NCBI GenBank assembly: GCA_947446335.1
Contig: CANFGA010000002.1
Span: 1 to 35,426 of the forward strand
Source of the DNA: Oxalobacteraceae bacterium
GTDB lineage: Bacteria; Pseudomonadota; Gammaproteobacteria; Burkholderiales; Burkholderiaceae_D
Length of the DNA: 35,426 bases
Reading direction: 5' to 3'
Below the pieces are notes generated by a model. The model saw only the letters and a list, made by a program, of their open reading frames with translations, was not told the DNA's origin and searched no databases. This document shows, one piece after another, positions 3,617 through 33,219 of the stretch; position 1 is the first letter of the stretch; every line of letters begins with the position of its first letter. The translations under genes were made by a program, and so were the position numbers.

Positions 3617-5120
<1,504 letters not shown>

Positions 5121-11949: not shown

Positions 11950-12801
11950 TTATTTCTCCTCGCATGAAGTCGATGGCGCGCAGCCACGACCGACTGGCAA
12001 GTCGGTCGCCGGCAGTTGCGATTCGGTCGCGCCGAAGGCAGTCCAACCGCCATCCACCGGCAGTACAGCACCGGTGATGTAACTCGCTTTCGGAGATGCG
12101 AGGAAGGCAATCGCTTCGGCAATCTCGGCCGGTTCGGCCATGCGACCGAGCGGGGTGCGGTGGGCGATGCCGGCGGCATCGAGCGCCCCCTGGCGTTCCA
12201 GCGCAAGAACCAGCTCGGTGCGCACATAGCCGGGCGCCACCGCATTGACGCGGATGCCGGCGCGCGCCCATTCGCTGGCCATCGCACGCGTCATGCCCAG
12301 CACCCCGGCTTTGGCGGCGCAATAGGCATTACGCGAGGGCAAGCCGATGCTGCTGGCGATGGAGCCCAGATTGACGATTGCACCGCGCTGCCCGTACTCA
12401 CGATCGGCTTGCAGCATGACGCGCGCTACCGATTGGCTCATCAGAAAGGTGCCGCGCAGGTGGACTGCGAGCACGCGGTCGAATGCCTGCGTGTTTTGCT
12501 CGACAGTCGCCTCGCTCTGGTCGCCGATGCCGGCATTGTTGACCAGCGCGTCGATGCGTCCGAATCTGGCCAGTACCTCGGCCACGGCCGCTTGCACACT
12601 GGCATCGGAGGTCACGTCGCAGTCCAGAGCGAGGTGTGGCGCACCGAGTTCGGCGGCGCGCGCCTGTGCCGCTTCGGCCCGCAGATCGAGCAGCGCCACA
12701 TGGTAGCCATCGGCGGCCAGTCGCTGCGCAGTGGCCCAGCCGATGCCGTCGGCGGCGCCTGTGACGATCGCGACCGCGACCGCAGTATCGTTTTGTTGCA
12801 T
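11950..12801 (-). CDS. SDR family NAD(P)-dependent oxidoreductase
   Basis: VTGAADGIGWATA, LVNNAGIG, S...YCAAK catalytic motif; GGAGG RBS 7 nt before ATG. Confidence 0.9.
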   Translation of the reverse strand: MQQNDTAVAVAIVTGAADGIGWATAQRLAADGYHVALLDLRAEAAQARAAELGAPHLALDCDVTSDASVQAAVAEVLARFGRIDALVNNAGIGDQSEATVEQNTQAFDRVLAVHLRGTFLMSQSVARVMLQADREYGQRGAIVNLGSIASSIGLPSRNAYCAAKAGVLGMTRAMASEWARAGIRVNAVAPGYVRTELVLALERQGALDAAGIAHRTPLGRMAEPAEIAEAIAFLASPKASYITGAVLPVDGGWTAFGATESQLPATDLPVGRGCAPSTSCEEK

Positions 12802-12947: not shown

Positions 12948-13298
12948 TCAGCGCTGCCGCGCGCGCATGCTCGGCATGTCTGCCAAACGGATCAGTCTGG
13001 TTTCCTGGGCCACGATCAAATGCCCGGAAGCGGCCAGATAGGCAGGAAATTCGGGATGAGTATCGCGCTGCCGACAACGCCGTTCATAATCGGTCAGATC
13101 GGCATAAGCCCACAGATGGACAACCTGGTTCAGCGGTCCGACCAGACTGGTATAAATGCCCAGCGGCGGGCCCAGCGTCTCCATCAACACCGGCATGGCC
13201 AGGCGATCGAATACCTCGAGAAATTCAGGCATCTTGCGCAGCGCTATGGTGTAAATGCGATGATCGATCAGGGGTTTGAGGAAAGGATCAGCCGACAT
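12948..13298 (-). CDS. NIPSNAP family protein
   Basis: IDHRIYTIALRKMPEFLEVFDRLAMPVLMETLGPPLGIYTSLVGPLNQVVHLWAYADLTDYERR; overlaps the flavoprotein 3' end by 11 nt. Confidence 0.85.
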   Translation of the reverse strand: MSADPFLKPLIDHRIYTIALRKMPEFLEVFDRLAMPVLMETLGPPLGIYTSLVGPLNQVVHLWAYADLTDYERRCRQRDTHPEFPAYLAASGHLIVAQETRLIRLADMPSMRARQR

Positions 13299-15072
13299 GC
13301 TGGCGCTCCTTGTTGAACTCGGCCACGACCGTCGGCGCCGCCACGCCGGCAACACTGTCCACTGCGGCGATGAAATGCCCGGTCAGGTAACCGAAGGTCA
13401 TGATCGGCCCCAGCGTGATGCCGGCGGCGGGATAATTGCCACCCATGACGCTGGCGCGATCGTTGCCGACCGCATACAGACCGGCGACAGGCGCGCCTTG
13501 ATCATCGAGCACCTGACCCACCGTGCTGGTCTTGATGCCATCGAACGTGCCCAGATCCCCCATGATCACCTTCAGCGCATAATAAGGGCCCTTGCCAACC
13601 GGACCGACGCAAGGATTGGGCTTGTTTTCAGGATCTGCCAGGAAGCGGTTGAATGCAGTCGTGCCGCGTCCAAATTGGGTATCCTCGCCGCGTACGGCGC
13701 CAACGTTGTAGTCGCGCACGGTTTGCTCGAGCGCGGCGCCGTCGATGCCGGCCTGTTGCGCCAGTTGCGTCAGCGTCGCCCCCTTGCTCAGATAACCATT
13801 GCGCAGCAAGGGCCCCAGCGGAATCGGCGCCGGCTTGGCATAACCGAGGCCATATTTGTTCATCGTCGCCTGGTCGCAGATCAGCCACATCGCCGTTTCG
13901 CCATCACCGGCGCAGGCGGCGATCATCGCGGCACCGACATCGTGATACGACTCCGATTCATTGGTGAAGCGCAAGCCGTGGCGCGTCACGCCGATGATGC
14001 CCGGCTTGTAGCGATCCAGCAAATGGGGAAATACGCCAAACTTGCCGCCCGCTTGCGGCACCCGCGACACCGGCATCCAGGCTGCCGGCTGCTTGAAGCG
14101 GATCTCGACCTGGCCGCCCGCAGCCTCGGCCAGTTTCAAGCCGTCGCCGGTATTGCCGCTAGGAACCGGCGACAAGTGCTCGCCGCCGCGGCGCAGATGC
14201 GGGTAAGCTTTCTTGATGCGTTCGACGTCATGCGAAAAACCGCCGCAGGCCAGCACCACGCCGCGCCGGGCGCTGATGCGGATATCGCCACTGGCGCTGC
14301 GCACCAGGGCGCCCGCGACGCGCCCTCCTTCGTGCAGCAATTGGTACGCCGCCGTGTTGGTGTGAATCGGAATGCCCAGGTCAAGCGCCGACTTCGCCAG
14401 CCGCGCCGCCAGCGCATTGCCGCTCGTGACGTGGATGCCGCGCCGGTACAGCGCCAGCTCCTTCAAATGATTGACCAGACGCTTGGCGACGTAGATGAAC
14501 GACGTCAGCGACTTGGTCGCGTTGAAAAAATGCTTCAGGTCAGCGTTCGACGAGTTGAACATCATGCCGATGAAGGTGATGGTTTTCAACGGCGGACGCA
14601 AACGGGCCATGTCAGCACCGAGTTCGCGAATGTCAAACGGCTTGGCCAGGATCGAGCGGCCAACATCGACTCCGCCCTGGACCGTCGGGTGATAGTCCGG
14701 ATACAGCGTCGGAATGAACTTGACATCGGTTTCGCGTTCGAAAAATTTCACCATGTCGGGGCCATTGTCGAGAAAGGCATCGACGGCTGGCGCATCGTAG
14801 AAGGCGCCGGTTTCATTTTTCATGTAAGTCTGGGCCGCTTGCCGGCTATCCTTGACGCCTTGGGCCGCGGCATGGGGATTGCCGGGAATCCACAACACGC
14901 CGCCCGAAAACGCGGTAGTGCCACCAAAATAGGATTCCTTTTCAATAACGATCACGTCGAGGCCGTTTTTCCTGGCAGTGATGGCCGTGGACAGGCCGCC
15001 TGCGCCGGAACCGATGACGAGCAAGTCGCACTCGATGTTGCTGCTTGAATTAGTTTGATTCATTTTATGCAT
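13288..15072 (-). CDS. KstD/fumarate-reductase-like FAD-dependent ring desaturase (paralog 1)
   Basis: N-terminal IGSGAGGLSTAI, YFGGTTAFSGGVLWIPGNP; C-terminal GLYAVGNDRASVMGGNYPAAGITLGPIMTFGYLTG. Confidence 0.88.
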   Translation of the reverse strand: MHKMNQTNSSSNIECDLLVIGSGAGGLSTAITARKNGLDVIVIEKESYFGGTTAFSGGVLWIPGNPHAAAQGVKDSRQAAQTYMKNETGAFYDAPAVDAFLDNGPDMVKFFERETDVKFIPTLYPDYHPTVQGGVDVGRSILAKPFDIRELGADMARLRPPLKTITFIGMMFNSSNADLKHFFNATKSLTSFIYVAKRLVNHLKELALYRRGIHVTSGNALAARLAKSALDLGIPIHTNTAAYQLLHEGGRVAGALVRSASGDIRISARRGVVLACGGFSHDVERIKKAYPHLRRGGEHLSPVPSGNTGDGLKLAEAAGGQVEIRFKQPAAWMPVSRVPQAGGKFGVFPHLLDRYKPGIIGVTRHGLRFTNESESYHDVGAAMIAACAGDGETAMWLICDQATMNKYGLGYAKPAPIPLGPLLRNGYLSKGATLTQLAQQAGIDGAALEQTVRDYNVGAVRGEDTQFGRGTTAFNRFLADPENKPNPCVGPVGKGPYYALKVIMGDLGTFDGIKTSTVGQVLDDQGAPVAGLYAVGNDRASVMGGNYPAAGITLGPIMTFGYLTGHFIAAVDSVAGVAAPTVVAEFNKERQHVG

Positions 15073-15193: not shown

Positions 15194-16021
15194 TCAGGCC
15201 GACATCTGGTCGTTGTAGCCGGGGCGCGGCACCAGATCCATCAGCATCGAACTCATGCCGCCATCGACGCCGATTTCGGCGCCGTTGATGTACGAGGCCC
15301 GGGCGCTGAGCAAGAACAGCGCGGCATTGGCAATATCCTCCGGTTCGCCGATGCGCCCGCTGGCGGTCACCGCAGAGCGACGCTGTTCGAGTCCCGGCGT
15401 ATCGTAGAATTTGGCTGACAAAGGAGTTCGGATCATCCCGGGACACACCGCATTGCTGCGTATGCCCGATGCGCCCCATTCGACTGCCATCTGGCGTGAC
15501 ATCAGCAACACCCCGGCCTTGGTCGCACTGTAGGCGCCACTGTGGGTTTGAGGAAACATGGCAGCGACCGACGCAACATGGACGATGCTGCCCCCACCCG
15601 CGCTCTTCATTTGCGCAGCGAAAGCGCGCGCCACCAGCAAATAGCCGGTCAGGTTGACCGCGATGACATGGTTCCAGTCTTCGATCGATACCGAATCGAG
15701 ACTGGCAGCGCGCAGCAAGCCGGCATTGTTGACCAGCGCGCTGCACACACCGAGCTCGGCGAGCACGCGCTTTGCTGCTGCGGCGATGCTGGTTTGGTCG
15801 GCCGTGTCGCAAGTGATCGCAATCGCGTGTGCGCCCTGCTGGCGCAGCGCTTGCGCCACTTGTTCGCAGCCATTGGTATTGCGATCGAGCAGCGCGACCA
15901 GCGCACCGGCCTCGGCCGCACCGCGCGCCGCAGCGGCGCCGATGCCGCTGGCCGCGCCGGTCACCACGCAGACCTTGCCGCGCAAGCCGAGCCAGTCGAC
16001 ACCGGACACCGGGGGCGTCAT
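15194..16021 (-). CDS. SDR family oxidoreductase
   Basis: VVTGAASGIGAAAA, ALVNNAGL, YSATKAG, INGAEIGVDGG. Confidence 0.9.
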   Translation of the reverse strand: MTPPVSGVDWLGLRGKVCVVTGAASGIGAAAARGAAEAGALVALLDRNTNGCEQVAQALRQQGAHAIAITCDTADQTSIAAAAKRVLAELGVCSALVNNAGLLRAASLDSVSIEDWNHVIAVNLTGYLLVARAFAAQMKSAGGGSIVHVASVAAMFPQTHSGAYSATKAGVLLMSRQMAVEWGASGIRSNAVCPGMIRTPLSAKFYDTPGLEQRRSAVTASGRIGEPEDIANAALFLLSARASYINGAEIGVDGGMSSMLMDLVPRPGYNDQMSA

Positions 16022-16274: not shown

Positions 16275-17168
16275 ATGAGGACCATCCCGCATTACGCGTT
16301 GTACGGCGACCAGGCAAAAAACAGCTGGGCCAGCATCTTCAATTTCGAATGGATACCGCAGCGCTCGGGACCGTATTTATGGGAAATTCAGCCGCATGTG
16401 CATGAAGCATTCATCCAGATCCTGTACCTGACCACGGGCTGCGCCGAAGTGTTGCTCGATGATGCCAAATGGAAAATCGAAGCGCCGTGCCTGATCGTGG
16501 TGCCCGCGCATACGGTGCATGGCTTTCGCTTTTCAACCGATGTCGATGGCGCCGTGATCACGGCCAGCCAACAATTTCTTGAGTCGCTGGCCGGTGTGGC
16601 GATGCCGGCATTGCTGCAAATAATACGCAAGCCTTTGGTGATCGGCGTCGACCAATCGACCCGGCACGTCGATGCGCTGATGCCCTTGCTGCTGGCCGTC
16701 GAGCGCGAATGGCAGGTGCACGAAGATGGCCAGGTCGCGGCCGGCATGTCGCTGATCATCGCCATTCTGGTACAAGCGTCGCGCATCAGCCACCAGCAAC
16801 AACCGGCCAGCGCATCGGGAAATTCGCGCAAGGCCGCGCAGATCGAAAAATTTCGAACGCTCGTCGAGATCCATTTCAGGGAATTGATTTCGGTCGACGC
16901 CTATGCCGACAAGCTCGGCCTGAGCGCCGGCCAGCTCTCGCGCGTGTGCCGTGAAGTGCTGGGCATGTCAGCGCTGGACATGATCAATGGGCGCCTGATC
17001 CATGAAGCCGAGCGCGGCTTGATTCATACATCGATGCCGGTCAAGCAATTGGCCGGTCTGCTCGGCTTCCACGATCCCGCCTATTTCGGACGATTTTTTC
17101 GCAAACATACGGGTACGACCCCGAAGCAATTTCGCGCCAAGGCGCTGGCCGACCTCGCGCTGACCTAG
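16275..17168 (+). CDS. AraC-family regulator, PobR-like
   Basis: IPHYALYGD...LWEIQPHVHEAFIQILYLTTG cupin sensor; C-terminal AraC HTH ..LAGLLGFHDPAYFGRFFRKHTGTTPKQFR. Confidence 0.87.
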   Translation: MRTIPHYALYGDQAKNSWASIFNFEWIPQRSGPYLWEIQPHVHEAFIQILYLTTGCAEVLLDDAKWKIEAPCLIVVPAHTVHGFRFSTDVDGAVITASQQFLESLAGVAMPALLQIIRKPLVIGVDQSTRHVDALMPLLLAVEREWQVHEDGQVAAGMSLIIAILVQASRISHQQQPASASGNSRKAAQIEKFRTLVEIHFRELISVDAYADKLGLSAGQLSRVCREVLGMSALDMINGRLIHEAERGLIHTSMPVKQLAGLLGFHDPAYFGRFFRKHTGTTPKQFRAKALADLALT

Positions 17169-17417: not shown

Positions 17418-17457
17418 TAAAAAATAAATCCTATTGATTCCTATCAGGAGACACTCC

Positions 17458-18498
17458 ATGACAAGCAAAAAGAAAATAGCGCTGATCGGTGCTGGCGCGA
17501 TCGGCAAGACCCATGTCGAGGTGCTGCAGCGCAGCACTGATGCGGCGCTGATGGCGCTGGTCGATCCCTCGCCGGCCGCCCGATTGCTGGCCGAGGCAGT
17601 TGGGGTGCCCTGGTTTGCCAACTACCACCAGATGCTGGAATCAAACAAACCGGATGGCGTGATCGTGGCAACACCCAACGCGACCCATGCCGAGGTCGGC
17701 GTATGCTGCATGGAACTGGGCATTCCGGTGCTGATCGAAAAGCCGATCGCCGATACGCTGGCGGCGGCGCAGCGCCTGGTCGATGCATCGAACCGCAGCG
17801 GCTTGCCGTTGCTGGTCGGCCATCACCGGCGCCACAATCCCATAATGCGCCGCGCTCGCGCCCTCCTCGACTCCGGATGCCTGGGCAAGCCGGTGACGGC
17901 CACCGTGATGGCCAACTTCTTGAAGCCGGACAGCTATTTTGACATCACATGGCGGCGCGAAGCCGGCGGCGGACCGGTGCTGATCAACATGATCCACGAG
18001 ATCGATGCAATGCGCTTTTTGTTTGGCGAAATCGCCAGCGTGCAAGCGATGTCATCGAATGCGATCCGCCAATTTTCAGTTGAAGATACCGCCGCCGTGA
18101 TCCTGCGCTTTCGCAATGGCGCGCTGGGCACGATCAGCGTCTGCGACACCGCAACAGGGCCATGGAACTGGGATCTGTGCGCAGGCGAAAGCGCGCACTA
18201 TCCGCGCCAGAACGAAAACAGCCATTTCTTGAGCGGAACCGATGGCTCACTGACCTTGCCCGGGCTCGATATCTGGAGCTACCGCGAACAACGCGGCTGG
18301 CACGATCGGCTCACGCAAGAGCGCAGCACGCCGCATCAGGGCAATCCCTACGAAGCTCAGATGCGTCATTTTGTTGCCATGATCGACGGCAGCGAGGCCC
18401 CGCTGTGCAGCGCCAGCGACGGCATGCGCACGCTGGCGGCAACGCTCGCCGTGCATCAGGCTGCCGCATCGGGCCTGACCATCATGCTCGACAATTGA
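17458..18498 (+). CDS. Gfo/Idh/MocA family oxidoreductase
   Basis: KIALIGAGAIGKTHVEVL Rossmann motif; VLIEKPIADT (catalytic EKP); AGGAG RBS. Confidence 0.9.
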   Translation: MTSKKKIALIGAGAIGKTHVEVLQRSTDAALMALVDPSPAARLLAEAVGVPWFANYHQMLESNKPDGVIVATPNATHAEVGVCCMELGIPVLIEKPIADTLAAAQRLVDASNRSGLPLLVGHHRRHNPIMRRARALLDSGCLGKPVTATVMANFLKPDSYFDITWRREAGGGPVLINMIHEIDAMRFLFGEIASVQAMSSNAIRQFSVEDTAAVILRFRNGALGTISVCDTATGPWNWDLCAGESAHYPRQNENSHFLSGTDGSLTLPGLDIWSYREQRGWHDRLTQERSTPHQGNPYEAQMRHFVAMIDGSEAPLCSASDGMRTLAATLAVHQAAASGLTIMLDN

Positions 18499-18540
18499 GC
18501 CGGGCGCAACAGAACAAGACCATCAATTTGCATTCCGCAT

Positions 18541-18555
18541 TGGAACCATGTTCTA
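18541..18555. promoter_or_regulatory. Single IclR-type dyad TGGAACCATGTTCTA
   Basis: GAAC-CAT-GTTC inverted repeat 33 bp upstream of the IclR start. Confidence 0.45.
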
Positions 18556-18588
18556 ATTCCGTTTTTGACTGCACACAGGAGAATGGAC

Positions 18589-19407
18589 ATGAGTGGAAGC
18601 TTGGATCGCGGGTTGTCGATATTGGAATTGCTGGCAATGAGCGGCGGCCCGCTGCCGCTGCGCGACATTGCCGAACGCCTGACCATTCCACCGAGCGCGA
18701 CGCACCGTTTGCTCACGATGCTGGCCGGCCTGGGCTACGTGCGCCAGACGGAGGACCATGGCGATTATCAATTGAGTCTGAAACTGGTCTCGCTGGGATT
18801 GATACGCCTGTCGACCAGCGGCATTTCCGACCTCGCGCAACCGGTGCTGGAAGAACTCGCGAGCGAAACGGGCGAACTGGCCCGGCTGGGTTTGATCGAA
18901 GATGAAAAGATGGTCTACATCGCAAAAGCGCAGGGCACGCTCCACGACTTGCGCTACGATCCCGACATGGGCAAGGAAGCGCCGCTGTTTTGCACTGCCA
19001 CCGGACAAGCATGGTTGCTCGGCATGACCGATGAAGAGGCGTTGATGATCGTGTCGCGCCAAGGTTTTGGCACCGGCACCGATTACGGACCAAATGCACC
19101 GCGCACCATCCCCGCCTTTCTGAAAGAATTGCAGTTGGCGCGCAAGCGCGGCTACGGCTTGAATCTCGATGCTTCGATGGCTGGCATCAGCGCAGTCGCA
19201 CTGCCGATCCGGCATCCAGTGAGCGGCAAGCCGGTCGGCGCAGTCAGTCTGGCCGGCCCTTCCAGCAGGATCACCGCTGCGCGCGCCAAGCAATTCATTC
19301 CCCTGCTGACCAAGGCGGCCAAAGAATTGTCGGGCATCTCGCTGGGCCCCTCATCGCTGCCCAAACAGCTTGCGGCGCAAAAAAGCCCCGCCAAAAAAGC
19401 GCGCTAG
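18589..19407 (+). CDS. IclR-family transcriptional regulator
   Basis: LDRGLSILELLAMSGGPLPLRDIAERLTIPPSATHRLLTMLAGLGYV; effector domain; AGGAG RBS. Confidence 0.92.
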   Translation: MSGSLDRGLSILELLAMSGGPLPLRDIAERLTIPPSATHRLLTMLAGLGYVRQTEDHGDYQLSLKLVSLGLIRLSTSGISDLAQPVLEELASETGELARLGLIEDEKMVYIAKAQGTLHDLRYDPDMGKEAPLFCTATGQAWLLGMTDEEALMIVSRQGFGTGTDYGPNAPRTIPAFLKELQLARKRGYGLNLDASMAGISAVALPIRHPVSGKPVGAVSLAGPSSRITAARAKQFIPLLTKAAKELSGISLGPSSLPKQLAAQKSPAKKAR

Positions 19408-19415
19408 GGAGACTG

Positions 19416-19449
19416 AGCACGGCATGGACCATGCATGCTGTGCTTTTTT
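19416..19449 (+). terminator. Rho-independent terminator after the iclR-type gene
   Basis: AGCACGGCATG/CATGCTGTGCT stem (one G-U pair) running into TTTTTT. Confidence 0.8.
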
Positions 19450-19476
19450 CAAAACTGTTGGCTTCTTGAATAAAAT

Positions 19477-19509
19477 TGGAATATCATTCCATATAAGAAT
19501 AATATTTCA
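19477..19509. promoter_or_regulatory. Compound IclR-type operator
   Basis: Perfect dyad TGGAATATCATTCCA then, 18 bp on, degenerate AAGAATAATATTTCA; upstream of the acyl-CoA dehydrogenase. Confidence 0.6.
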
Positions 19510-19538
19510 ATTAACCGACAACCCCTTTGAAAGCAACC

Positions 19539-20699
19539 ATGGATTTCTCCCTGAACGACGAACAAAAGATGATCATCGACACCGTGCGTCGATTCATCGC
19601 AGAAGAACTCAAGCCGCTCGAAAACGGCATCGAAGAAACAGGCGCACTGGACCGGGTCACGGCCTTGGCCATCCACGAAAAAGCGAAAGCACTGGGTTTG
19701 TACGCGCTCAATATCCCCGCAGAACTGGGCGGCGGCGGACTCTCGGTGCTCGATCGCATCCTGTGTGAAGAGCAGTTCGGCCATACCTCCGACTACCTGA
19801 TCCGCCGCGCTTTTGGCAACATCTATGAACCGCTGCTGGTGTGCCAGGGAGAGCAAGTGGAACGCTGGCTCAAGCCCACCGTCGAGGGCAAGCGTACCTG
19901 CGCGATCGCGATCACCGAATCTGGCGCCGGCTCCGATGCCCAAGGCATCAAGACCCATGCCAGAAAGACTGACGCAGGTTGGGTACTCAACGGCAGCAAG
20001 CACTTCATCAGCGACGGCCTGTGGAGCGACTTCTTCCTGGTCTCGGCCAAGACCGGCGAGAAGGAAATCAGCGTGTTCATGGTCGACAAGGGCTTGCCAG
20101 GCTTCACCGTGGGCAAGGACCAGAAGATGATGGGGTTGCGCGGCACGCCGCATCTGGAACTGTTTTTTGACGATGTGTTACTGGAACCGGTCGCGCTGCT
20201 GGGCGAGCAAGGTCAGGGCTTCAAGCTGGCCATGGGCGCGCTCAATGTGGTGCGCCTGGCGCAAGTGGGCGCGCGCGCCGTCGGCAAGGCCAGCCATGTA
20301 CTGGAGCTGATGGTCGATTACGCCGGCCAGCGCACCCAGTTCGGACAGAAGATCGGCGACTTTCAGTTGATCCAGCAACAACTGGCCGACAGCGCGATCG
20401 AGATCAACGCCGCGCGCTGGATGGTCTATCACGCTGCCTGGATGCTCGATCAGGGCCAGGATGCGCGGGCGCAGATTGCGATGGTCAAGGTAGCGGCTGC
20501 AGAAATGCTGGGCCGCGTGGTGGACCGGGCAGTGCAAGTATTTGGCGGCATGGGCTTTTGCAAGGAATTGCCGATCGAGCGCTACTACCGCGACGCCCGC
20601 ATTTATCGCATTTATGACGGCACCAGCGAAATTCACCGCACCGTGATCGCCAAGAGCCTGATGAAACAAGGCGCAACGCTGTTCGATGTCAATCGCTGA
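19539..20699 (+). CDS. Acyl-CoA dehydrogenase
   Basis: ITESGAGSDAQGIKT, QVFGGMGFCKELPIERYYRDARIYRIYDGTSEIHR with catalytic Glu position. Confidence 0.93.
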   Translation: MDFSLNDEQKMIIDTVRRFIAEELKPLENGIEETGALDRVTALAIHEKAKALGLYALNIPAELGGGGLSVLDRILCEEQFGHTSDYLIRRAFGNIYEPLLVCQGEQVERWLKPTVEGKRTCAIAITESGAGSDAQGIKTHARKTDAGWVLNGSKHFISDGLWSDFFLVSAKTGEKEISVFMVDKGLPGFTVGKDQKMMGLRGTPHLELFFDDVLLEPVALLGEQGQGFKLAMGALNVVRLAQVGARAVGKASHVLELMVDYAGQRTQFGQKIGDFQLIQQQLADSAIEINAARWMVYHAAWMLDQGQDARAQIAMVKVAAAEMLGRVVDRAVQVFGGMGFCKELPIERYYRDARIYRIYDGTSEIHRTVIAKSLMKQGATLFDVNR

Positions 20700-20718
20700 T
20701 CGCATGGAGAACAACAAC

Positions 20719-22305
20719 ATGGCAAACAGCAAATTCATGACAGCGGCGCAAGCGGCGCAATTGATCCGCGACAACGACACCGTCGGGCTGATGGGCGGTG
20801 GTGGCGGCCTGATGGAAGCGACCTGCATGTTCGAAGCGGTGCAGGCACGCTTTCTGGAGACCGAATCTCCGCGCAAGCTGACGCTGGTGCACGCGCTGGG
20901 CATCGGCGACAAAAAGACCAAGGGAATGAATTGCTTCGCCCACGAAGGCCTGGTCAAGCGCGTGATCGGCGGCCACTGGGTATGGTCGCCCGCGATGCAA
21001 AAACTGGCCCAGGAAGAAAAGATCGAGGCCTACATCCTGCCCGGTGGCGTATCGAGCCAGTTGATGCGCGAAATCGGCGCGGGCCGCCCCGGCCTGTTCA
21101 CCCATGTCGGCCTCGGTACCGTCTGCGACCCGCGCCAGGGCGGCGGCAAGATGAATGCCAGCGCCAGCGACGATCTGGCTGAAGTGATCGAGATGGACGG
21201 GCGCGAATACCTGCGCTACAAACCCTTCCCGATCCATATCGCCATCGTGCGCGCCAGCGCGGCCGATGACGATGGCAACATCAGCTTCGAACACGAAGCG
21301 GCCAATCTCGATGCGCAGTCGCTCGCGCTGGCTGCGCGCAACAGCGGCGGCAAGGTCATCGTCCAAGTGCGCGAGCGCGTGCCCAGCGGTGCGCTGAAGG
21401 CGCGCGAAGTGCGCATTCCATCGGCCTGGGTCGATGCCATCGTGGTCGACCCGCAGCAGCAAACCAGCTACGACATACCGTTCGATCCCGCCTTCAGCGG
21501 CGAACTGACGGGCGCCGAACGCAGGCAAGCCGAAGACGCCGACCACGCGCGCGAACAAGCGGCCGCCAACGACATGTTCAGCGAACGCCAGGCCGTGGCG
21601 CGGCGCGCGGCGGTGGAACTGTTCAATACCGACAAGGCGCGTCCGGTCGTCAATTACGGCGTCGGCGTGCCAGATGCCGTGGCCAGGCTGATTGCGGCGC
21701 GCGGCCAGCAGCACCTGATCTACCAGACCATCGAGCACGGCACTTACGGCGGCACGCTGATGGATGGTGTCCTGTTCGGCTATGCGCGCAATGCGACGGC
21801 GATGCTCGACGCGCCCACCCAGTTCGACTTTTACGCCGGTGGCGGGCTCGATATTGCCTTCCTCGGTTTTGGCCAGTTCGATCAACAGGGTAACGTCAAC
21901 GTCAGCAAGCTCGGCGGCCTCACTGTCGGCCCCGGCGGCTTCATCGACATCGCACAGAATGCACGCAAGGTGATCTTTTGCGGCACGCTCGGGGCCAAGG
22001 GCGTGAAGCTCGAAACAGGCAATGGCCAGATGCGCGTGCTGCGTCAAGGCGAAGTAAGAAAACTGGTCGCACAGGTCGATCAAATCACCTTCAGTGGTCC
22101 GCAAAGCTTGCTACGCGGACAGACCGTGCTGTTCCTGACCGAGCGCGCCAGTTTTCGTCTGACAGCGCGCGGCATCGAACTGTTCGAGATTGCTCCCGGC
22201 ATCGATTTGCAGCGCGATGTACTCGACCAGATGGCCTTCATGCCGCAACTGGCAGAGAAAATCGCGACCATCAGCGCGGATCACTTCCTCGCATCAACAA
22301 CTTAG
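20719..22305 (+). CDS. Acyl-CoA:acetate/3-ketoacid CoA-transferase (fused A and B domains)
   Basis: GLMGGGGGLMEATCMFEAV, catalytic YQTIEHGTYGGTLMDG, FYAGGGLDIAFLGFGQFDQQGNVNVSKLGG. Confidence 0.88.
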   Translation: MANSKFMTAAQAAQLIRDNDTVGLMGGGGGLMEATCMFEAVQARFLETESPRKLTLVHALGIGDKKTKGMNCFAHEGLVKRVIGGHWVWSPAMQKLAQEEKIEAYILPGGVSSQLMREIGAGRPGLFTHVGLGTVCDPRQGGGKMNASASDDLAEVIEMDGREYLRYKPFPIHIAIVRASAADDDGNISFEHEAANLDAQSLALAARNSGGKVIVQVRERVPSGALKAREVRIPSAWVDAIVVDPQQQTSYDIPFDPAFSGELTGAERRQAEDADHAREQAAANDMFSERQAVARRAAVELFNTDKARPVVNYGVGVPDAVARLIAARGQQHLIYQTIEHGTYGGTLMDGVLFGYARNATAMLDAPTQFDFYAGGGLDIAFLGFGQFDQQGNVNVSKLGGLTVGPGGFIDIAQNARKVIFCGTLGAKGVKLETGNGQMRVLRQGEVRKLVAQVDQITFSGPQSLLRGQTVLFLTERASFRLTARGIELFEIAPGIDLQRDVLDQMAFMPQLAEKIATISADHFLASTT

Positions 22306-22326
22306 CCAGATCGATCGATGAAGTTC

Positions 22327-22350
22327 GCACTGGCCGGCTTCGGCCAGTGC
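22327..22350. terminator. Hairpin between convergent genes
   Basis: GCACTGGCCG-GCTT-CGGCCAGTGC perfect 10-bp stem, T-tract 8 nt downstream on +. Confidence 0.6.
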
Positions 22351-22353
22351 AGT

Positions 22354-24096
22354 TCAGCTTTTTTGCAATGGCATCGCCGATGTCGTGCAGCGCGCTACCG
22401 CGTGGCGCGCCGCCAGATAGCCAAAGACCAGCCCGGGGCCCAGCGTGATGCCCGGGGCTGTATAGACGCCCCCCATGATCGAATGCATGTCGTTGCCGAC
22501 CGCATACAAGCCATCGATCGCTCGCTGGTTTGCACCCAACACGCGCGCATCGGCATCGGTCGCAAGACCGGTCGCGGCGCCGATGTCGCCCGGATACAGA
22601 CGTACAGCGTAATAAGGCGCCTGAGTCAATGCGCCCAGATTGGGGTTTTTGCCGCTCCACGCCGGATCGCCGATGTTGCGCTGATAAGCGGTGACGCCAC
22701 GCTGAAAGTCGGGATCGAGGCCGGTTTGCGCATGCGCATTGAAGCGAGCGACGTTGGCCTCCAGCCCTGCAGCATCGATGCCCAGACGGCTGGCCAGTTC
22801 TGCCAGCGTGCGCCCTTGCGTCAGATAACCGTCGGCCAGGAACGGCGCCAACCCTTTGCCGCCCGGACGCACCATGCCGATGCCGTACTTGCGCAGCGCC
22901 TGCGCATCGCAGACCAGATAGGCTGGAATCGCCGCAGCGTTCTTGTTGCGCTGCTGCATGGCCAGCGCAAACAGATGATACGAGGTGCTTTCGTTGACGA
23001 ACCGCCGGCCTGCCTGATCGACGGTCAGCATGCCGGGCTTGGCCCTGTCCATCACGAAATGGGGAAATACGGCAGTGCTGCCATCGGTGCGCGTGCGCAT
23101 CGACACCGGCGCCCAGAACGCATTGGTCAAGGCGCCGCTGCCGTAATGCGCGCCCAGGCCCAGAGCGAGATCGTGCGCAGCGCCGGTGTGGCCGGGCGCC
23201 GCCGGACACCAGTTCTGATCCACGCCCGGCAGCATCGACTTGCGCAAGGACGGATGGCGATTGAAGCCGCCGCTGGCCAGGATCACGCCGCCATGGGCAT
23301 GAACCGTGACTGCTTTTCCATTTTGCGACAAGGTGACCGATTCAATGCCGTGGGCGCCGCTGTCGATGGCGTCGACCGAAGCGTTCAACAGCAGCGCCAC
23401 CTTGGCATGTTTGGACAGCGAATACAACAGGCGCGCAACCAGCGCATTACCCATCACCAGACGCGTGCCGCGCGCATGGCGCAGACGGTCGCATGCATGG
23501 CGCAACAGAATCTGCGCCGAATGCGCGGCCGATGCCAGCGACTTGCCCAGGCCCAGCAGATGGTTGATGTCGGTGCGATCCACCATCATGCCGCCCAACA
23601 CGGTGAATTCGGGTATCGGCGACCGGATCAACTTGAACAGATCGCCCAGCAAGCGCCCGTCGAATGGCAACGGCTCCAGCGCCCTGCCGTTGAGAGTGGA
23701 ACCGCCCAGTTCAGAGATGTAATCCGGATGTTTTGCGCAGGCGCGGTACTTGACATCGGAATGGGCCTCGATCTGCTTGATCGCCGCCGGTCCAGCCTCC
23801 AGAAAAGCCTGGCGCAGCGCTGCCGGCGTGCGCTCGCCGATCGCGTTCGTCAGATAACGCGCCGCCGCTTCCAGCGTATCCGTCGGATTCACCGCTGCGC
23901 CATGATCGGTGCCCGGTATCCAGGTGGTGCCGGCCGACCAGGCCGTGGTGCCACCGACGAATCCGGTACGCTCCACCAGCAGCACGCTCGCGCCATCGAT
24001 CGCAGCGAACAATGCCGCCGCCAGGCCGGCGCCACCGGCGCCGATCACGACAACGTCATAACTTGCCGATGCCGGCAACTGGCTCAAGACATCCAT
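22354..24096 (-). CDS. KstD/fumarate-reductase-like FAD-dependent ring desaturase (paralog 2)
   Basis: VVIGAGGAGLAAALFAA, FVGGTTAWSAGTTWIPGTD; GLYAVGNDMHSIMGGVYTAPGITLGPGLVFGYLAARHA. Confidence 0.87.
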   Translation of the reverse strand: MDVLSQLPASASYDVVVIGAGGAGLAAALFAAIDGASVLLVERTGFVGGTTAWSAGTTWIPGTDHGAAVNPTDTLEAAARYLTNAIGERTPAALRQAFLEAGPAAIKQIEAHSDVKYRACAKHPDYISELGGSTLNGRALEPLPFDGRLLGDLFKLIRSPIPEFTVLGGMMVDRTDINHLLGLGKSLASAAHSAQILLRHACDRLRHARGTRLVMGNALVARLLYSLSKHAKVALLLNASVDAIDSGAHGIESVTLSQNGKAVTVHAHGGVILASGGFNRHPSLRKSMLPGVDQNWCPAAPGHTGAAHDLALGLGAHYGSGALTNAFWAPVSMRTRTDGSTAVFPHFVMDRAKPGMLTVDQAGRRFVNESTSYHLFALAMQQRNKNAAAIPAYLVCDAQALRKYGIGMVRPGGKGLAPFLADGYLTQGRTLAELASRLGIDAAGLEANVARFNAHAQTGLDPDFQRGVTAYQRNIGDPAWSGKNPNLGALTQAPYYAVRLYPGDIGAATGLATDADARVLGANQRAIDGLYAVGNDMHSIMGGVYTAPGITLGPGLVFGYLAARHAVARCTTSAMPLQKS

Positions 24097-24097
24097 C

Positions 24098-24895
24098 TCA
24101 TTCTCCCAGCAAGAAATCGACCATCAGCTCGCGCACGCGGCCAAACATGTGCGCACCGGTCATGCAGTTGCAACCGATTTCGCGCGCGGCGGCGATCAAA
24201 GGCGTGATCGCGGGAGCGGTGATGACACAGGCGACAAACATCGCGGGCGTGATGCGCTCGACATCGAGCGGATACAAGTCGCCCTGCTGCATCCCCACCG
24301 GCGTCGCATTGACCACGATATCGAAGCCGGACGGATCGGCGCTGCCATGCGACAAACTGCCGCGCTCAAGCCCTGCAAGCCGATCGAGCAGCGTTGTGCG
24401 GCGCTGCGCATCGGCATCATGGATCGCCAGCGTACTCACTCCCGCCATCAGCAGTGCATGGGCGATCGCCGAACCAGCGCCGCCAGCGCCCACCAGCAAC
24501 ACTTTCTTGCCTTCGGGCTGGCAGCCGTTGTCGCGCAGCGCGGCGACAAAACCTGAGCCGTCGAACATGTCGCCATGCCAACTGCCATCAAGGTTGCGGC
24601 GCATGACGTTGACGGTATGCAAAAAGGCGGCGCGCTTCGAACTGGTCGCGCACAGATCGAAGCAGGCAAATTTATGCGGCACGGTGACGATCACGCCATC
24701 GAGATTTTTGGCCAGCGATACGCCAGCGAGCCAGGCGGCCAGATCGGCCGGCGCCACATGGGCCGGCATCACGAACGCATTGTGGCCGCGCGCGTGGCAA
24801 TCCTCTGTAACGCCGGCCGGCGACTTCACCTGAGCAATAGGATCGCCCACGATGAAATAAACGCGTGTTGCACCATTCAACAGAAGTTCTGACAT
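24098..24895 (-). CDS. Shikimate/quinate dehydrogenase family protein (AroE paralog 1)
   Basis: VGDPIAQVKSP, VTVPHKFA, MFDGSGFV, VGAGGAGSAIAHALL, VNATPVGM; RBS for the next gene lies in its 3' end. Confidence 0.88.
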   Translation of the reverse strand: MSELLLNGATRVYFIVGDPIAQVKSPAGVTEDCHARGHNAFVMPAHVAPADLAAWLAGVSLAKNLDGVIVTVPHKFACFDLCATSSKRAAFLHTVNVMRRNLDGSWHGDMFDGSGFVAALRDNGCQPEGKKVLLVGAGGAGSAIAHALLMAGVSTLAIHDADAQRRTTLLDRLAGLERGSLSHGSADPSGFDIVVNATPVGMQQGDLYPLDVERITPAMFVACVITAPAITPLIAAAREIGCNCMTGAHMFGRVRELMVDFLLGE

Positions 24896-24945
24896 GATTT
24901 TTACCCGATGGGTTGGCAAGGAAGAATTCGCATTTTATATTTAAG

Positions 24946-24978
24946 TAGAATACAATTCAACTATTGAATTAAATTCCA
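24946..24978. promoter_or_regulatory. Compound IclR-type operator in a divergent promoter
   Basis: TAGAATACAATTCAA-cta-TTGAATTAAATTCCA, 18 bp start-to-start. Confidence 0.55.
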
Positions 24979-25012
24979 TTAAAAATGAAAAGTGATCTGA
25001 CAAGGAGTGACC

Positions 25013-26719
25013 GTGGATAAATTACCGGAACAGATCGATCTGCTCGTGATCGGGTCCGGTGCGGGCGGTCTGTCCACCGCGGTGACCGCCGCCTTGCTGG
25101 GACAAAAAGTGCTGGTCGTTGAAAAAGAGCCGGAGTACGGCGGCACCACCGCCTGGTCCGGTGGTTGGATGTGGATTCCACGCAACCCGTTGGCGATTGC
25201 AGCGGGCATCAGCGAGAGCATCGATGCACCGCTGTGCTACCTGCGCCACGAACTCGGGGCACGCTTCGACGAGGCCATGGCCCGCGCTTTTCTGGAAAAT
25301 GGTCCGCGCATGGTCGAATTTTTCCGCTCCAGATCGGCGCTGCGCTTCATCGACGGCAACAGCATTCCGGACTTTCATGGCGCGGCGCCGGGCGCGGCCA
25401 GCGGTGGACGCTCGATTTGCGCAGCGCCCTTCGACGCGCGACGTCTGGGCCACCACATCGCGCAACTGAAGCCGCCGCTGCCTGAAACCACGCTGTGGGG
25501 CATGGGGATTGCATCGGGCGCCGAACTGAAGCATTTTCTCAATGCATTGCGCAAGCCGGCCTCGTTCTGGCATGTCAGCAAACTGCTGGTCCGATACGGG
25601 CGCGATCTGCTGCTGCACCGGCGTGGCATGCGCCTGGTCAATGGCAATGCGCTGGTGGCGGCACTGGCGGCATCGGCCTTCGAGGCGGGCGTCGAAATTC
25701 GCACCGACAGCCCGGCCAGACGCCTGATCATCGAGCACGATCGCGTCGTCGGCGCCGTGATCGGCAGCGCGCAAGGCGATATCGAGATCCGCGCCAGGCG
25801 CGCCGTGGTGCTCGCCTGTGGCGGGTTTCCCCACGACATGGCGCGCAAGAAGGCACTGTTGCCGCATGCACCGACTGGCCGCGAACACTGGTCCGCCGCA
25901 TCGCGCGGCAACACCGGCGATGGCTTGCGCCTGGGCGAATCTGCTGGCGGCACAGTGACTCGCGATCTGGTGCACGCGGCGGCGCTGGCGCCGGTGTCGC
26001 TGGTGCCAAGGCAAAATGGCAGCGTGGCCCACTTTCCGCACCTGATCGAGCGGGCCAAGCCCGGCTTGATTGCGGTCACTGCTGATGGCATGCGCTTCAC
26101 CAACGAAGCCGATTCTTATCACGACTTCATGCAAGCGCTGCTGCGCGCCGCGCGTCCCGGCGCACCGATTCAAGCCTGGCTGATATGCGACCATGCTTTC
26201 ATTCGCCGCTATGGCTTGGGCGCGGTCAAGCCGGTGCCGATGCCATTGGGCCGCATGCTCGGCAATGGCTACCTGAAACGGGGAAAAACCCTGGATAGCC
26301 TGGCTCGCGCCTGTGCCATTTCGGCTTCCGGACTCGAGAAAACCATTGCAGACTACAACCGACAGGCGATCATCGGGCGCGATGACGACTTCTCGAAAGG
26401 CGAATCTGCATACAACCGCATCCAGGGCGACGCCAGCGCCGGCAACCCCAATGCCTGCATGGCACCGATACTGCGCGGCCCGTTTTACGCCGTACGAGTG
26501 GTCGCCGGCAGCCTGGGCACGTTTGCCGGTCTGCAAGTGAATGCCAGCGCCCAGGTCCAGGATGACGCGGGGCGCACTATCGCCGGCCTGTACGCTGCGG
26601 GCAACGACATGAGCAGCATCATGGGTGGCAACTATCCTGGCGGCGGCATCACGCTGGGGCCGGCCATGACCTTTGGCTTCATCGCCGCCCATCATTGTGC
26701 CGGCATCGATCCATGCTGA
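25013..26719 (+). CDS. KstD/fumarate-reductase-like FAD-dependent ring desaturase (paralog 3); GTG start
   Basis: VIGSGAGGLSTAVTAA, EYGGTTAWSGGWMWIPRNP; GLYAAGNDMSSIMGGNYPGGGITLGPAMTFGFIAAHH; AGGAG RBS. Confidence 0.87.
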   Translation: MDKLPEQIDLLVIGSGAGGLSTAVTAALLGQKVLVVEKEPEYGGTTAWSGGWMWIPRNPLAIAAGISESIDAPLCYLRHELGARFDEAMARAFLENGPRMVEFFRSRSALRFIDGNSIPDFHGAAPGAASGGRSICAAPFDARRLGHHIAQLKPPLPETTLWGMGIASGAELKHFLNALRKPASFWHVSKLLVRYGRDLLLHRRGMRLVNGNALVAALAASAFEAGVEIRTDSPARRLIIEHDRVVGAVIGSAQGDIEIRARRAVVLACGGFPHDMARKKALLPHAPTGREHWSAASRGNTGDGLRLGESAGGTVTRDLVHAAALAPVSLVPRQNGSVAHFPHLIERAKPGLIAVTADGMRFTNEADSYHDFMQALLRAARPGAPIQAWLICDHAFIRRYGLGAVKPVPMPLGRMLGNGYLKRGKTLDSLARACAISASGLEKTIADYNRQAIIGRDDDFSKGESAYNRIQGDASAGNPNACMAPILRGPFYAVRVVAGSLGTFAGLQVNASAQVQDDAGRTIAGLYAAGNDMSSIMGGNYPGGGITLGPAMTFGFIAAHHCAGIDPC

Positions 26720-26784
26720 TCCTGCCGCCACCCCGGGTCGAACGACCTTTTCTCACTTCAACCATCACCATCAAGGAATCCGCC

Positions 26785-27411
26785 ATGTTTTATGAAATGT
26801 CCACCATGACCCTGCCCTTCGGCACAGCCGCTCAAGCAGCCAACGGGGTCCAGCAATATGCGGCCGCGCCCGAAGCCGGCGGCGAACTGCTCGGTTGCTG
26901 GTTTACCGATATCGGCACGCTCAACCAGATGATCGTGCTGCGCGGCTTTGCCACGCTGTCCGACCTGCAGACCGAGCGCGAGCGCACCCAGCAAAGCAAC
27001 AATGCGTTCGGTTGCGGCGCGATCTTCCAGAGTCTGGAACAGCACAGCTACCGCGGTTTTCCATGGATGACGCCGGTGCGCCCGAGCGCAGAATCAGGCA
27101 TCAACGGCCCGGTGTACGAGATCCGCACCTATGGCATCAAGCCTGGCGGGGTGCAAGCGACGATCGATCTGTGGCAAGAATACGTTCCGGCGCGCGAACA
27201 AATTTCTCCGTGCATCGTCGCGATGGTGGCACTGGACGGCGCACTGCGTTTCACCAATATCTGGGCTTATCCAACGCTGGACGCGCGCAGCAAGGCGCGC
27301 CTTGATGCAGTGACGCAAGGAATCTGGCCACCAAAAGGCGGCCCGGCGCACCTGACGACTGCGATGACATCGATCATTGCGATGCCGACGACGGTCTCGC
27401 CGCTGAAGTAG
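26785..27411 (+). CDS. NIPSNAP family protein, apparently two tandem domains
   Basis: FYEMSTMTLPFGTAAQAANGV... and VYEIRTYGIKPGGVQATIDLWQEYVPAREQ...LRFTNIWAYPTLDAR. Confidence 0.83.
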   Translation: MFYEMSTMTLPFGTAAQAANGVQQYAAAPEAGGELLGCWFTDIGTLNQMIVLRGFATLSDLQTERERTQQSNNAFGCGAIFQSLEQHSYRGFPWMTPVRPSAESGINGPVYEIRTYGIKPGGVQATIDLWQEYVPAREQISPCIVAMVALDGALRFTNIWAYPTLDARSKARLDAVTQGIWPPKGGPAHLTTAMTSIIAMPTTVSPLK

Positions 27412-27474
27412 ATTCAGCCTGGTCTGCTGTCACTGCTTACCCCGCCTGTTCTCTTTCATCCATTCAAGGACGGT

Positions 27475-27499
27475 GCCGGCTCTGCGCTGCAGAGCCGGC
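27475..27499. other. 11-bp perfect hairpin in the intercistronic/5' leader
   Basis: GCCGGCTCTGC-GCT-GCAGAGCCGGC, no T-tract, about 20 bp before the next ATG. Confidence 0.6.
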
Positions 27500-27518
27500 G
27501 CTATCCGGCAAGGAATCC

Positions 27519-28358
27519 ATGCGCAGTTACTCACTCGCTTACCTGACGACGAATACACTGACGCCGCCGCAGGCAATCTGCCTCGCGCAGCAACTCGGCT
27601 GCAGCTTTACCGGCCTGCGCCTGCTGCCCAATGCGCCGGGGGCGCCGCACCAATGGCTGATCGGCCAGCCCGAGGTGCTGCGCGAAACGCTGGCCGCGCA
27701 ACGCGATACCGGCGTGGGCGTGTTCGATCTCGAGATCATCCGCATCGCCGCAGGGTTCGACCTGCGCACTTACCTGCCGCTGCTGGAAGCGGGGGCGGCG
27801 CTGAAAGCGAAAGCGGTGCTGGTTGCCGGCGACGACCCCGACAATGCCCGCCTGAGCGAAAACTACGCGCGCCTGTGCCAGGCAATGGCGCCGTTGGGCA
27901 TGACAGCCGATCTGGAATTCATGCCCTGGACCTGCGTGCCGGACGTGCAATCTGCCTTGCGCATTGTCAACGCCGCCGGTTGCCCTGCCAATGCCGGCAT
28001 TCTGGTCGATGCGCTGCATGTGGCGCGCTCAAACACGACGCTGGACGACATCCGGGCGATTCCTCGCCAGTTGCTGCATTACGCCCAAATTTGCGACGCC
28101 CCCACCAGCGCCCAGATCGGCCGCCCGTTCACACAAGAAGAAATGATCCACACCGCGCGCTGCGAACGCCTGCTGCCCGGCGAAGGCGACATCGACCTGC
28201 AAGCCCTGTTCTCGGCCTTGCCGCAAGACTTGCCCATCAGCGTGGAAATACCGCATCAGCTGCGCCTGGCGCAGGCGGGCCAGACCGAGTGGGCGCGCCA
28301 GGCCTTGGCGAGCAGCCGTGCGCTGATCGAGCGCTGCGATGCCCAGTTGCCGGCGTGA
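27519..28358 (+). CDS. Sugar phosphate isomerase/epimerase-like TIM barrel protein
   Basis: AP-endonuclease-2/xylose-isomerase-like metal-site segments DLEFMPW, ILVDALHVARSN, SVEIPHQ. Confidence 0.8.
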   Translation: MRSYSLAYLTTNTLTPPQAICLAQQLGCSFTGLRLLPNAPGAPHQWLIGQPEVLRETLAAQRDTGVGVFDLEIIRIAAGFDLRTYLPLLEAGAALKAKAVLVAGDDPDNARLSENYARLCQAMAPLGMTADLEFMPWTCVPDVQSALRIVNAAGCPANAGILVDALHVARSNTTLDDIRAIPRQLLHYAQICDAPTSAQIGRPFTQEEMIHTARCERLLPGEGDIDLQALFSALPQDLPISVEIPHQLRLAQAGQTEWARQALASSRALIERCDAQLPA

Positions 28359-31486: not shown

Positions 31487-32374
31487 TCACGCCATCGTCG
31501 AATGGCCCGCGCTGGACTGGCGCACCTGCAGGCTGCGCCGCAGCACCTGATCGGTGACCCACTTGGCACTGGCGTGGGCACGCTGCGCGACGACCTGCGG
31601 CGACAGTTGCAAGTAATCGTCGTTGGCCACTTCAAAACTGTAATCGCCGCGGTAGCCGCTGCGATCGAGGCGACGCAGCAAGTCTGATAACTCCTTCGAA
31701 TGCGCGCCTTCGCCTGGAAACACACGCAAATGACGGGCCGTATCCATGCGTTCTTCGGCACTGCTGATGCCCGGCCACATGAAATCAGACAATTGCACCA
31801 GCGCGATTTTGTCGCTGGCAATATCGGCCAAGCCATCGGCATCGAGGCCACTGGCGAGCATGTGGAAGGTGTCGAGCACGATGCCAAGGTTGGCATGATC
31901 GGCCATCTCGACCACTTCCCACGCCTGGTCAGTGTGGTGCACATGACGGCCCCACGACAGCGCTTCAAAGCCGATGCGTACACCCAGCGGCACCGCCAGC
32001 GTCGCCAGTTTGGCCAGGTCGCGCGCAATCAGCGGCAACTCGCCGCTGGCATGAGCCGAGGTGCTGGAAGAGACCAGCAGCAACGGTGCACCGACTGCCT
32101 TGCAAGCCTGCAGCAAGTGTTTCGCAATGTCGAGCTTGTACTGATGCAACGAGCTCGATAATCCTTCATAGTCGCGCAATACTTGCAAAGCAGTCACTTG
32201 CATGCCGCTCGCGCGCACCACGCGCACTGCGTCAGCCACGCCGCCCGGATAGTCGGCCAGATCCGTGGCCCATAACGTGATTTGCGAAAAACCGGCCGCT
32301 TTTGCCGCCGCCAGCTTCGACTCCAGGGGCCCGGCCAGCGTGATGCTGTCGAGACCGAAATTGGACAGGTTCAC
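31487..32374 (-). CDS. Sugar phosphate isomerase/epimerase; 3-dehydroshikimate dehydratase-like TIM barrel domain
   Basis: GFEALSWGRHVHHTDQAWEVVEMADHANLGIVLDTFHMLASG...IALVQLSDF resembles QuiC N-terminal domain; GTG start overlapping the upstream stop. Confidence 0.8.
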   Translation of the reverse strand: MNLSNFGLDSITLAGPLESKLAAAKAAGFSQITLWATDLADYPGGVADAVRVVRASGMQVTALQVLRDYEGLSSSLHQYKLDIAKHLLQACKAVGAPLLLVSSSTSAHASGELPLIARDLAKLATLAVPLGVRIGFEALSWGRHVHHTDQAWEVVEMADHANLGIVLDTFHMLASGLDADGLADIASDKIALVQLSDFMWPGISSAEERMDTARHLRVFPGEGAHSKELSDLLRRLDRSGYRGDYSFEVANDDYLQLSPQVVAQRAHASAKWVTDQVLRRSLQVRQSSAGHSTMA

Positions 32375-33219
32375 AATGCCTCCAGCGCGCGAAACGCATC
32401 CGACGCCACGCCCGGCCAGCCGAACAGTTCGAGGTACAAGGGCGCTTGTTCGATCAGCATTTCCTTGCCCTTCTGAATTCGACAGCCGCGCGCCTGGGCT
32501 TCCACCAGCAAGCGGCTCATTTCAATTTTCATCCCGCAATCGGCCACGATGCACGATGGTGCAATCCCGTCCAGATCCAGCGGCAATGGATCGTCTGCAT
32601 GCATGCCCAACGGCGTCGAATTGACAACCAGATCGTAGCCGGCTGCGCGCGGTGCGCCGATCGCAAATTCGATCTGCGGAAATGCCACAGCCAAGCGCTC
32701 GCGCAGCGCCTCGGCTTGCCCGACCCGGTTGTCAAAAATGGCAACATGGCCCATGCCGCGCGACGCCAGCGACTCGGCGATCGCGCAGCCGACACCACCG
32801 CTGCCGACCACCAGCGCCCGCCCCTTGGTCCAATCAAACGGCATGTCAAGACAGGTGCGGTCAAAAGCGCGCACGAAGCCTTCGCCATCGATCAAGTCGC
32901 CGATGACCGTCTTGCCATCAAGCGCCTTGTAGATCGCATTGCAGGCGCCGGCCAGCACGGCGCGCTCGGTCGGCTGATCGACTGCATCGACGCTCATTGG
33001 CTTGTGCGGAATCGACACGAAGATACCGCCCACGTTCTCCATCGCCATCAGGGTGCGTACGGCGGCGCTGTAATCTTGCGGCGGCACCTTCAAGGGAATC
33101 ACGCGGGCATCGATGCCGTGCTGCATGAAATAGGCATTGAACAGCGCGGGCGCCTTGACTTGCTCGACCGGCCAGCCGATGACAGGGAAAATGCGCGTGG
33201 TACCGGAAATTTCAAGCAT
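32371..33219 (-). CDS. Shikimate dehydrogenase family protein (AroE paralog 2)
   Basis: VIGWPVEQVKAP, VSIPHKPMS, GDLIDGEGFVRAF, VGSGGVGCAIAESLA, VNSTPLGM. Confidence 0.9.
   Translation of the reverse strand: MLEISGTTRIFPVIGWPVEQVKAPALFNAYFMQHGIDARVIPLKVPPQDYSAAVRTLMAMENVGGIFVSIPHKPMSVDAVDQPTERAVLAGACNAIYKALDGKTVIGDLIDGEGFVRAFDRTCLDMPFDWTKGRALVVGSGGVGCAIAESLASRGMGHVAIFDNRVGQAEALRERLAVAFPQIEFAIGAPRAAGYDLVVNSTPLGMHADDPLPLDLDGIAPSCIVADCGMKIEMSRLLVEAQARGCRIQKGKEMLIEQAPLYLELFGWPGVASDAFRALEAL

Follow-up and report, generated by a model that had tools for sequence, protein, structure and literature searches.

The stretch of DNA analysed here, referred to as the window, is 35,426 nt long, comes from an Oxalobacteraceae bacterium and encodes three FAD flavoproteins of one family, two of which are followed by a gene for a NIPSNAP protein. 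The first of these pairs lies in a group of genes that we call module A:

16275 to 17168, plus strand: AraC-type regulator, transcribed divergently from module A (171.8 bits with the HpaA model, below cut-off)
15194 to 16021, minus strand: SDR dehydrogenase 5' of P0002 (ChcB2 model, 183.5 bits; cut-off 350)
13288 to 15072, minus strand: FAD flavoprotein P0002, 594 aa, predicted KstD/ChcC2-like ketone alpha,beta-dehydrogenase (FAD_binding_2, 329 bits)
13288 to 13298, minus strand: 11-nt overlap of the P0002 and P0001 reading frames, ATGTCGGCTGA
12948 to 13298, minus strand: single-domain NIPSNAP P0001, 116 aa (PF07978, 74.1 bits; cut-off 22.3)
11950 to 12801, minus strand: second SDR dehydrogenase, 3' of P0001 (ChcB2 model, 203.5 bits, below the cut-off of 350)

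The ChcB2 model describes cis-4-hydroxycyclohexanecarboxylate dehydrogenase, and both SDRs of module A score below its cut-off. The TGA stop codon of P0002 occupies positions 13290-13288 of the minus strand, and the ATG of P0001 (13298, same strand) lies within the 3' end of the P0002 gene, with an AAGGAG motif 7 nt 5' of it. The 11-nt overlap described in an earlier, sequence-only reading of this DNA is thereby borne out.

By the terms of that reading, an adjacency of flavoprotein and NIPSNAP confined to this locus would have spoken against it; a count across genomes shows that the adjacency is not so confined. We compared the 80 closest P0002 homologues from 84,980 species genomes (71-77% identity, flanks of up to 8 kb), a sample of mutually related loci from Burkholderiales, Pseudomonadales and Rhodocyclales (beta- and gammaproteobacteria) in which Burkholderiales predominate. 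In 75 of the 80 loci the next gene downstream, co-directional with the flavoprotein gene, encodes a NIPSNAP; in one more (L088) the NIPSNAP gene is convergent. The two genes usually overlap or touch: this holds for the NIPSNAP start and the flavoprotein stop in 64 of these 75 loci, with offsets of -4 (35 loci), -17 (11), -1 (nine), -11 as in the window (eight) and -14 (one). The remaining four loci have no NIPSNAP, and three of those genomes hold a 71-77% identical NIPSNAP elsewhere; in the genome of one close relative (L046), no P0001-like gene was found at all. The other neighbours are less constant than the NIPSNAP: the upstream SDR occurs in 64/80 loci, the AraC gene in 62/80 and the downstream second SDR in 37/80. 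The NIPSNAP is present in 12 of the 16 loci that lack the upstream SDR and in 15 of the 18 that lack the AraC gene. Conversely, of 29 further NIPSNAPs from the window's family, not one lies within 1.5 kb of a KstD-like flavoprotein. In samples drawn without bias across phyla and orders, a NIPSNAP was nearby in all four flavoproteins at 67-75% identity and in only six of 43 at 45-53% identity. An association of the two genes beyond chance is thus strongly supported. Loci of Variovorax, Xenophilus and Hydrogenophaga (L069, L078, L093, L105 and others) have an additional NIPSNAP from a different lineage next to a thiolase-like gene, on the minus strand and roughly 3 kb upstream of the flavoprotein gene.

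The second pair belongs to module B (17434-28358), a conserved cluster with a Gfo/Idh gene, an IclR gene, a flavoprotein and shikimate-dehydrogenase-like gene pair divergent from a further flavoprotein, a two-domain NIPSNAP and a TIM-barrel gene. Its relevant genes, together with the protocatechuate dioxygenase genes of the window, are as follows:

22354 to 24096, minus strand: third flavoprotein of the family, P0003, with no adjoining NIPSNAP (NF009477, 895 bits; cut-off 758)
24098 to 24919, minus strand: shikimate-dehydrogenase-like enzyme (PF08501, 42.7 bits)
25007 to 26719, plus strand: second flavoprotein of the family, P0004 (NF004789, 884 bits; cut-off 747)
26785 to 27411, plus strand: two-domain NIPSNAP P0005, 208 aa (two PF07978 stretches, 85.3 bits; cut-off 22.3)
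27519 to 28358, plus strand: TIM-barrel (AP_endonuc_2) isomerase- or dehydratase-like enzyme, 3' of P0005 (PF01261, 51.6 bits)
3617 to 5019, minus strand: protocatechuate 3,4-dioxygenase genes (alpha subunit at 3617-4270: TIGR02423, 265 bits; cut-off 126)

P0004 starts with a GTG at 25007, with 25013 as a possible alternative. The second flavoprotein-NIPSNAP pair of the sequence-only reading is present (25007-27411); unlike the first, its genes are separated by 65 nt and their reading frames do not overlap. P0003 was absent from that reading. In the host's own genome, an incomplete and fragmented assembly that is 82% complete, just two NIPSNAP genes were found, P0001 and P0005, each 3' of a flavoprotein.

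The core of module B also occurs in Paracoccus (L124), Rhizobium (L126), Limimaricola (L169) and Diaphorobacter (L123). The neighbours of the shikimate-dehydrogenase-like gene match those in Limimaricola, Rhizobium and Paracoccus, the TIM-barrel gene is conserved in L123, L124 and L169, and the two-domain NIPSNAP is an optional member of such clusters across relatives. The six NIPSNAP-bearing flavoproteins at 45-53% identity are likewise of the module B type and carry a two-domain NIPSNAP. Two-domain NIPSNAPs are found without an adjoining flavoprotein in other catabolic operons, namely in Rhodococcus DK17 pDK3 (L125:10001-10618) and in Cupriavidus oxalaticus (L168:7998-8612), where the gene lies between those for MaoC and an acyl-CoA dehydrogenase.

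Among alphaproteobacterial orthologues of P0002 at 64-68% identity, from Neorhizobium, Haematobacter, Salipiger, Rhizobium and Paracoccus, the NIPSNAP lies beyond a divergent AraC gene, and in Roseomonas (62%) it lies two genes downstream. In a tree built on few columns, in which deep branches are unsure, the alphaproteobacterial NIPSNAPs (except that of Roseomonas), the beta/gammaproteobacterial type and the two-domain type form separate groups. Together with the divergence of P0001 and P0005, whose alignment covers just 46 residues (33% identity) while their partners P0002 and P0004 are 50% identical, this grouping favours repeated association of flavoprotein and NIPSNAP. The separate lineages and gene orders would fit such repetition better than a single event, although they do not amount to proof.

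P0002 resembles KstD and AcmB (PDB 4c3x and 7p18) in its FAD_binding_2 fold family and its Tyr/Tyr/Tyr/Gly set of catalytic residues. In KstD, Tyr487 and Gly491 polarise the ketone while Tyr119 and Tyr318 capture the proton (PMC5348764). The matching residues of P0002 (Tyr127, Tyr376, Tyr547 and Gly551 for KstD Tyr119, Tyr318, Tyr487 and Gly491) do not vary among the 80 homologues; since all four are kept, P0002 should dehydrogenate a ring ketone at the alpha,beta position. P0003 also keeps all four, and a residue check of P0004 found Phe at the Tyr119 position, which may alter its reaction or substrate. The label KstD-like given by the sequence-only reading holds for these residues and less well for overall similarity. 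The best functionally named model for P0002 is ChcC2, 4-oxocyclohex-2-ene-1-carboxylate 5-dehydrogenase (NF053677, 565.0 bits, below the cut-off of 900; P0004 and P0003 score 469.6 and 419.0 bits, also below 900), and its score against the KstD equivalog NF009478 is 448.7 bits, below the cut-off of 789. By these scores P0002 appears nearer to ChcC2 than to KstD, and we claim neither identity. Steroid degradation was set aside as a role, given this order of scores and a window in which no steroid genes were recognised and the neighbours point to small alicyclic acids. With ChcC2 as the best model, ChcB2-like SDRs on either side of the pair and pobA and pcaK-like genes nearby in relatives, P0002 probably aromatises a cyclic keto-acid rather than a steroid.

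Aerobic degradation of cyclohexanecarboxylate proceeds via 4-oxocyclohexanecarboxylate and two desaturases (delta-dehydrogenases) to 4-hydroxybenzoate (PMC9795900). The chc pathway of Sinomonas cyclohexanicum, with its dehydrogenase ChcB2 and desaturases ChcC1 and ChcC2 (Yamamoto et al. 2021, cited in PMC9795900), served as a comparison system. Like that pathway, module A combines an SDR with a KstD-like flavoprotein predicted to oxidise the ring of a 4-substituted cyclohexanecarboxylate, and relatives carry genes for 4-hydroxybenzoate (pobA, pcaK-like) beside it. Unlike it, module A stays under the equivalog cut-offs for ChcC1, ChcC2 and ChcB2 and contains one flavoprotein instead of two, plus the NIPSNAP; nor was a P450 noticed in the window.

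P0001 belongs to the NIPSNAP family by profile (PF07978, matched by 50/50 members of alignment A1) and by the monomer fold of its dimeric alpha/beta-barrel, as seen in 5k9f, 5kak, 1vqs, 1vqy, 2ap6 and 5ixu. Its AlphaFold2 model has a pLDDT of 92.8, and the top 15 PDB matches are all NIPSNAP structures (TM-score 0.76-0.90), none of them above 33% identity; the model of P0005 was poor (pLDDT 60) and was left out of the fold comparison. Within the family, P0001 belongs to a separate clade with invariant residues of its own: Arg21, His61, Trp63, Tyr65, Arg74, Arg78 and Asp79. Other NIPSNAPs have Gly at position 21 and mostly Tyr at 61, Leu at 63, Trp at 65, Lys at 74, Phe at 78 and Ala at 79, and the alphaproteobacterial type shares His61, Trp63 and Tyr65 with the P0001 clade. 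The best match of the model outside the NIPSNAPs is LsrG (E 4e-6), followed by YgiN/ABM monooxygenases, which match almost as well, and the OAC cyclase; a viral fold search gave no significant match. LsrG, the phospho-AI-2 isomerase, is a ketone isomerase that acts on phospho-DPD (PMC8016206). Like P0001, LsrG and the ABM/OAC enzymes are small alpha/beta-barrel proteins; they work without a cofactor on keto or enol compounds, and the modelled fold of P0001 would fit an enzyme for such a compound. P0001 is no more than 20% identical to LsrG, and we claim no membership of that family for it. The literature searched assigned no biochemical function to bacterial NIPSNAPs, and open literature searches for NIPSNAP with flavoprotein, shikimate or quinate, operon, isomerase or degradation cluster returned nothing relevant.

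We tentatively propose, at somewhat less than even chances, that P0001 is an enzyme devoted to tautomerising or isomerising the dienone product of P0002, within an operon that aromatises an alicyclic acid. Module A, in the order AraC gene, SDR, flavoprotein, NIPSNAP and SDR, would convert the ring of an alicyclic hydroxy- or keto-acid into that of an aromatic acid. The SDR might generate the ring ketone, and the KstD/ChcC2-type flavoprotein would then dehydrogenate alpha,beta to it, once or twice, yielding an enone or a cross-conjugated dienone. Through the translational overlap, the small dimeric alpha/beta-barrel NIPSNAP could be made in step with the flavoprotein, bind its unstable product and catalyse a proton shift, either enone isomerisation or dienone-to-phenol tautomerisation. 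Tautomerisation of the product would be the simplest role for a NIPSNAP next to a ketone dehydrogenase, and the sequence-only reading had likewise suggested that it acts on, protects or tautomerises an unstable dienone or enone. However, 2,5-dienones, of which the presumed ChcC2 product is one, could aromatise unaided, and a tautomerase would then be unnecessary. The scarcity of NIPSNAPs beside the more distant flavoproteins (6/43), the genome of L046 and the YgiN/ABM fold matches also count against the proposal.

The nature of the substrate is a separate matter. PobA is encoded beside the module in 21 of the 80 loci and in Haematobacter, the pobA-linked loci being mostly Burkholderia and Paraburkholderia and hence not 21 independent cases, and a PcaK-like 4-hydroxybenzoate transporter is encoded beside it in 49 of the 80. 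The 82% complete genome of the host itself has no pobA match, so that 4-hydroxybenzoate may not be the product in this bacterium, and the protocatechuate 3,4-dioxygenase at 3617-5019, whose beta subunit we read from the translation of the adjoining gene (4267-5019), is likely to be the aromatic sink. At 31487-34099, a QuiC-like 3-dehydroshikimate dehydratase is apparently encoded in two parts, a TIM-barrel gene and an HPPD/VOC-like gene, which flank a shikimate-dehydrogenase-like gene, each of the three overlapping the next by a few nucleotides; Paracoccus (L124) has the fused form. As separate genes the halves score 175 and 103.8 bits, below an equivalog cut-off of 1200 set for a single two-domain protein. 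A quinate- or shikimate-like substrate may therefore apply in this genome, given the missing PobA match and the protocatechuate dioxygenase, shikimate-dehydrogenase-like and QuiC-like genes of the window. In its full form, a possible but doubtful alternative holds that the substrates are quinate- or shikimate-type hydroaromatics instead of the cyclohexanecarboxylate type; the flavoprotein would form protocatechuate or gallate by aromatising a polyhydroxylated ring, and the NIPSNAP would perhaps isomerise an enol. The two shikimate-dehydrogenase-like genes and the similar neighbours in Paracoccus agree with it; on the other hand, the genes concerned belong mainly to module B, and module A alone travels with PobA and the PcaK-like transporter in relatives. 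As it concerns the substrate, this alternative is compatible with a tautomerase role for P0001.

The translational overlap can also be read differently, since overlaps with coupled expression are typical of stoichiometric complexes. The NIPSNAP could be a non-catalytic partner of the flavoprotein, such as a small subunit, a chaperone or an electron-acceptor docking protein, held at a fixed ratio by the overlap, and its tight pairing with one flavoprotein clade would suit that role. We consider this unlikely: distant NIPSNAP lineages lie beside related flavoproteins, in some cases on the opposite strand and beyond a regulator. This pattern is easier to explain by a common action on a small molecule than by a single co-evolved interface. 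Two-domain NIPSNAPs also occur in operons without an adjoining flavoprotein. Similarly improbable, in our view, is that the adjacency reflects descent and joint operon transfer, with the NIPSNAP serving another step or general stress or lactone handling and having no special link to the flavoprotein. The 80 loci are indeed close relatives, mostly Burkholderiales, and two-domain NIPSNAPs do occur in varied catabolic operons; yet the NIPSNAP is the most constant neighbour and is usually retained in loci that lack the SDR or the AraC gene, Alphaproteobacteria combine different NIPSNAP lineages with different gene orders, and 0/29 other NIPSNAPs have such a flavoprotein nearby. Least probable, and by our estimate a long shot, is a cofactor-free monooxygenase of the ABM/YgiN kind that hydroxylates the dienone or phenol, for instance directly to protocatechuate: the fold matches and a host genome without a PobA match but with protocatechuate 3,4-dioxygenase genes in the window speak for it, whereas PobA, the usual ring hydroxylase, adjoins the same NIPSNAP in 21 related loci and in Haematobacter, so that the NIPSNAP is no replacement for PobA, and LsrG, an isomerase, is the nearest characterised protein by fold.

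Extending the tautomerase proposal beyond the window, we consider it possible, though on balance doubtful, that bacterial NIPSNAPs of the P0001 clade are dedicated to tautomerising dienones or isomerising enones, thereby completing KstD/ChcC2-type ring aromatisation, in a partnership that arose more than once from different NIPSNAP lineages. If true, the NIPSNAP family would thereby gain its first catabolic function. The flavoproteins, often annotated as 3-oxosteroid 1-dehydrogenase or FAD-dependent oxidoreductase, are probable alicyclic-acid aromatising enzymes. NIPSNAP proteins have a broad distribution that reaches from bacteria to human mitochondria, and the tight pairing found here, conserved across many bacteria and adjoined by 4-hydroxybenzoate genes in relatives, links one of them to an enzyme of predictable chemistry and so provides a concrete reaction to test.
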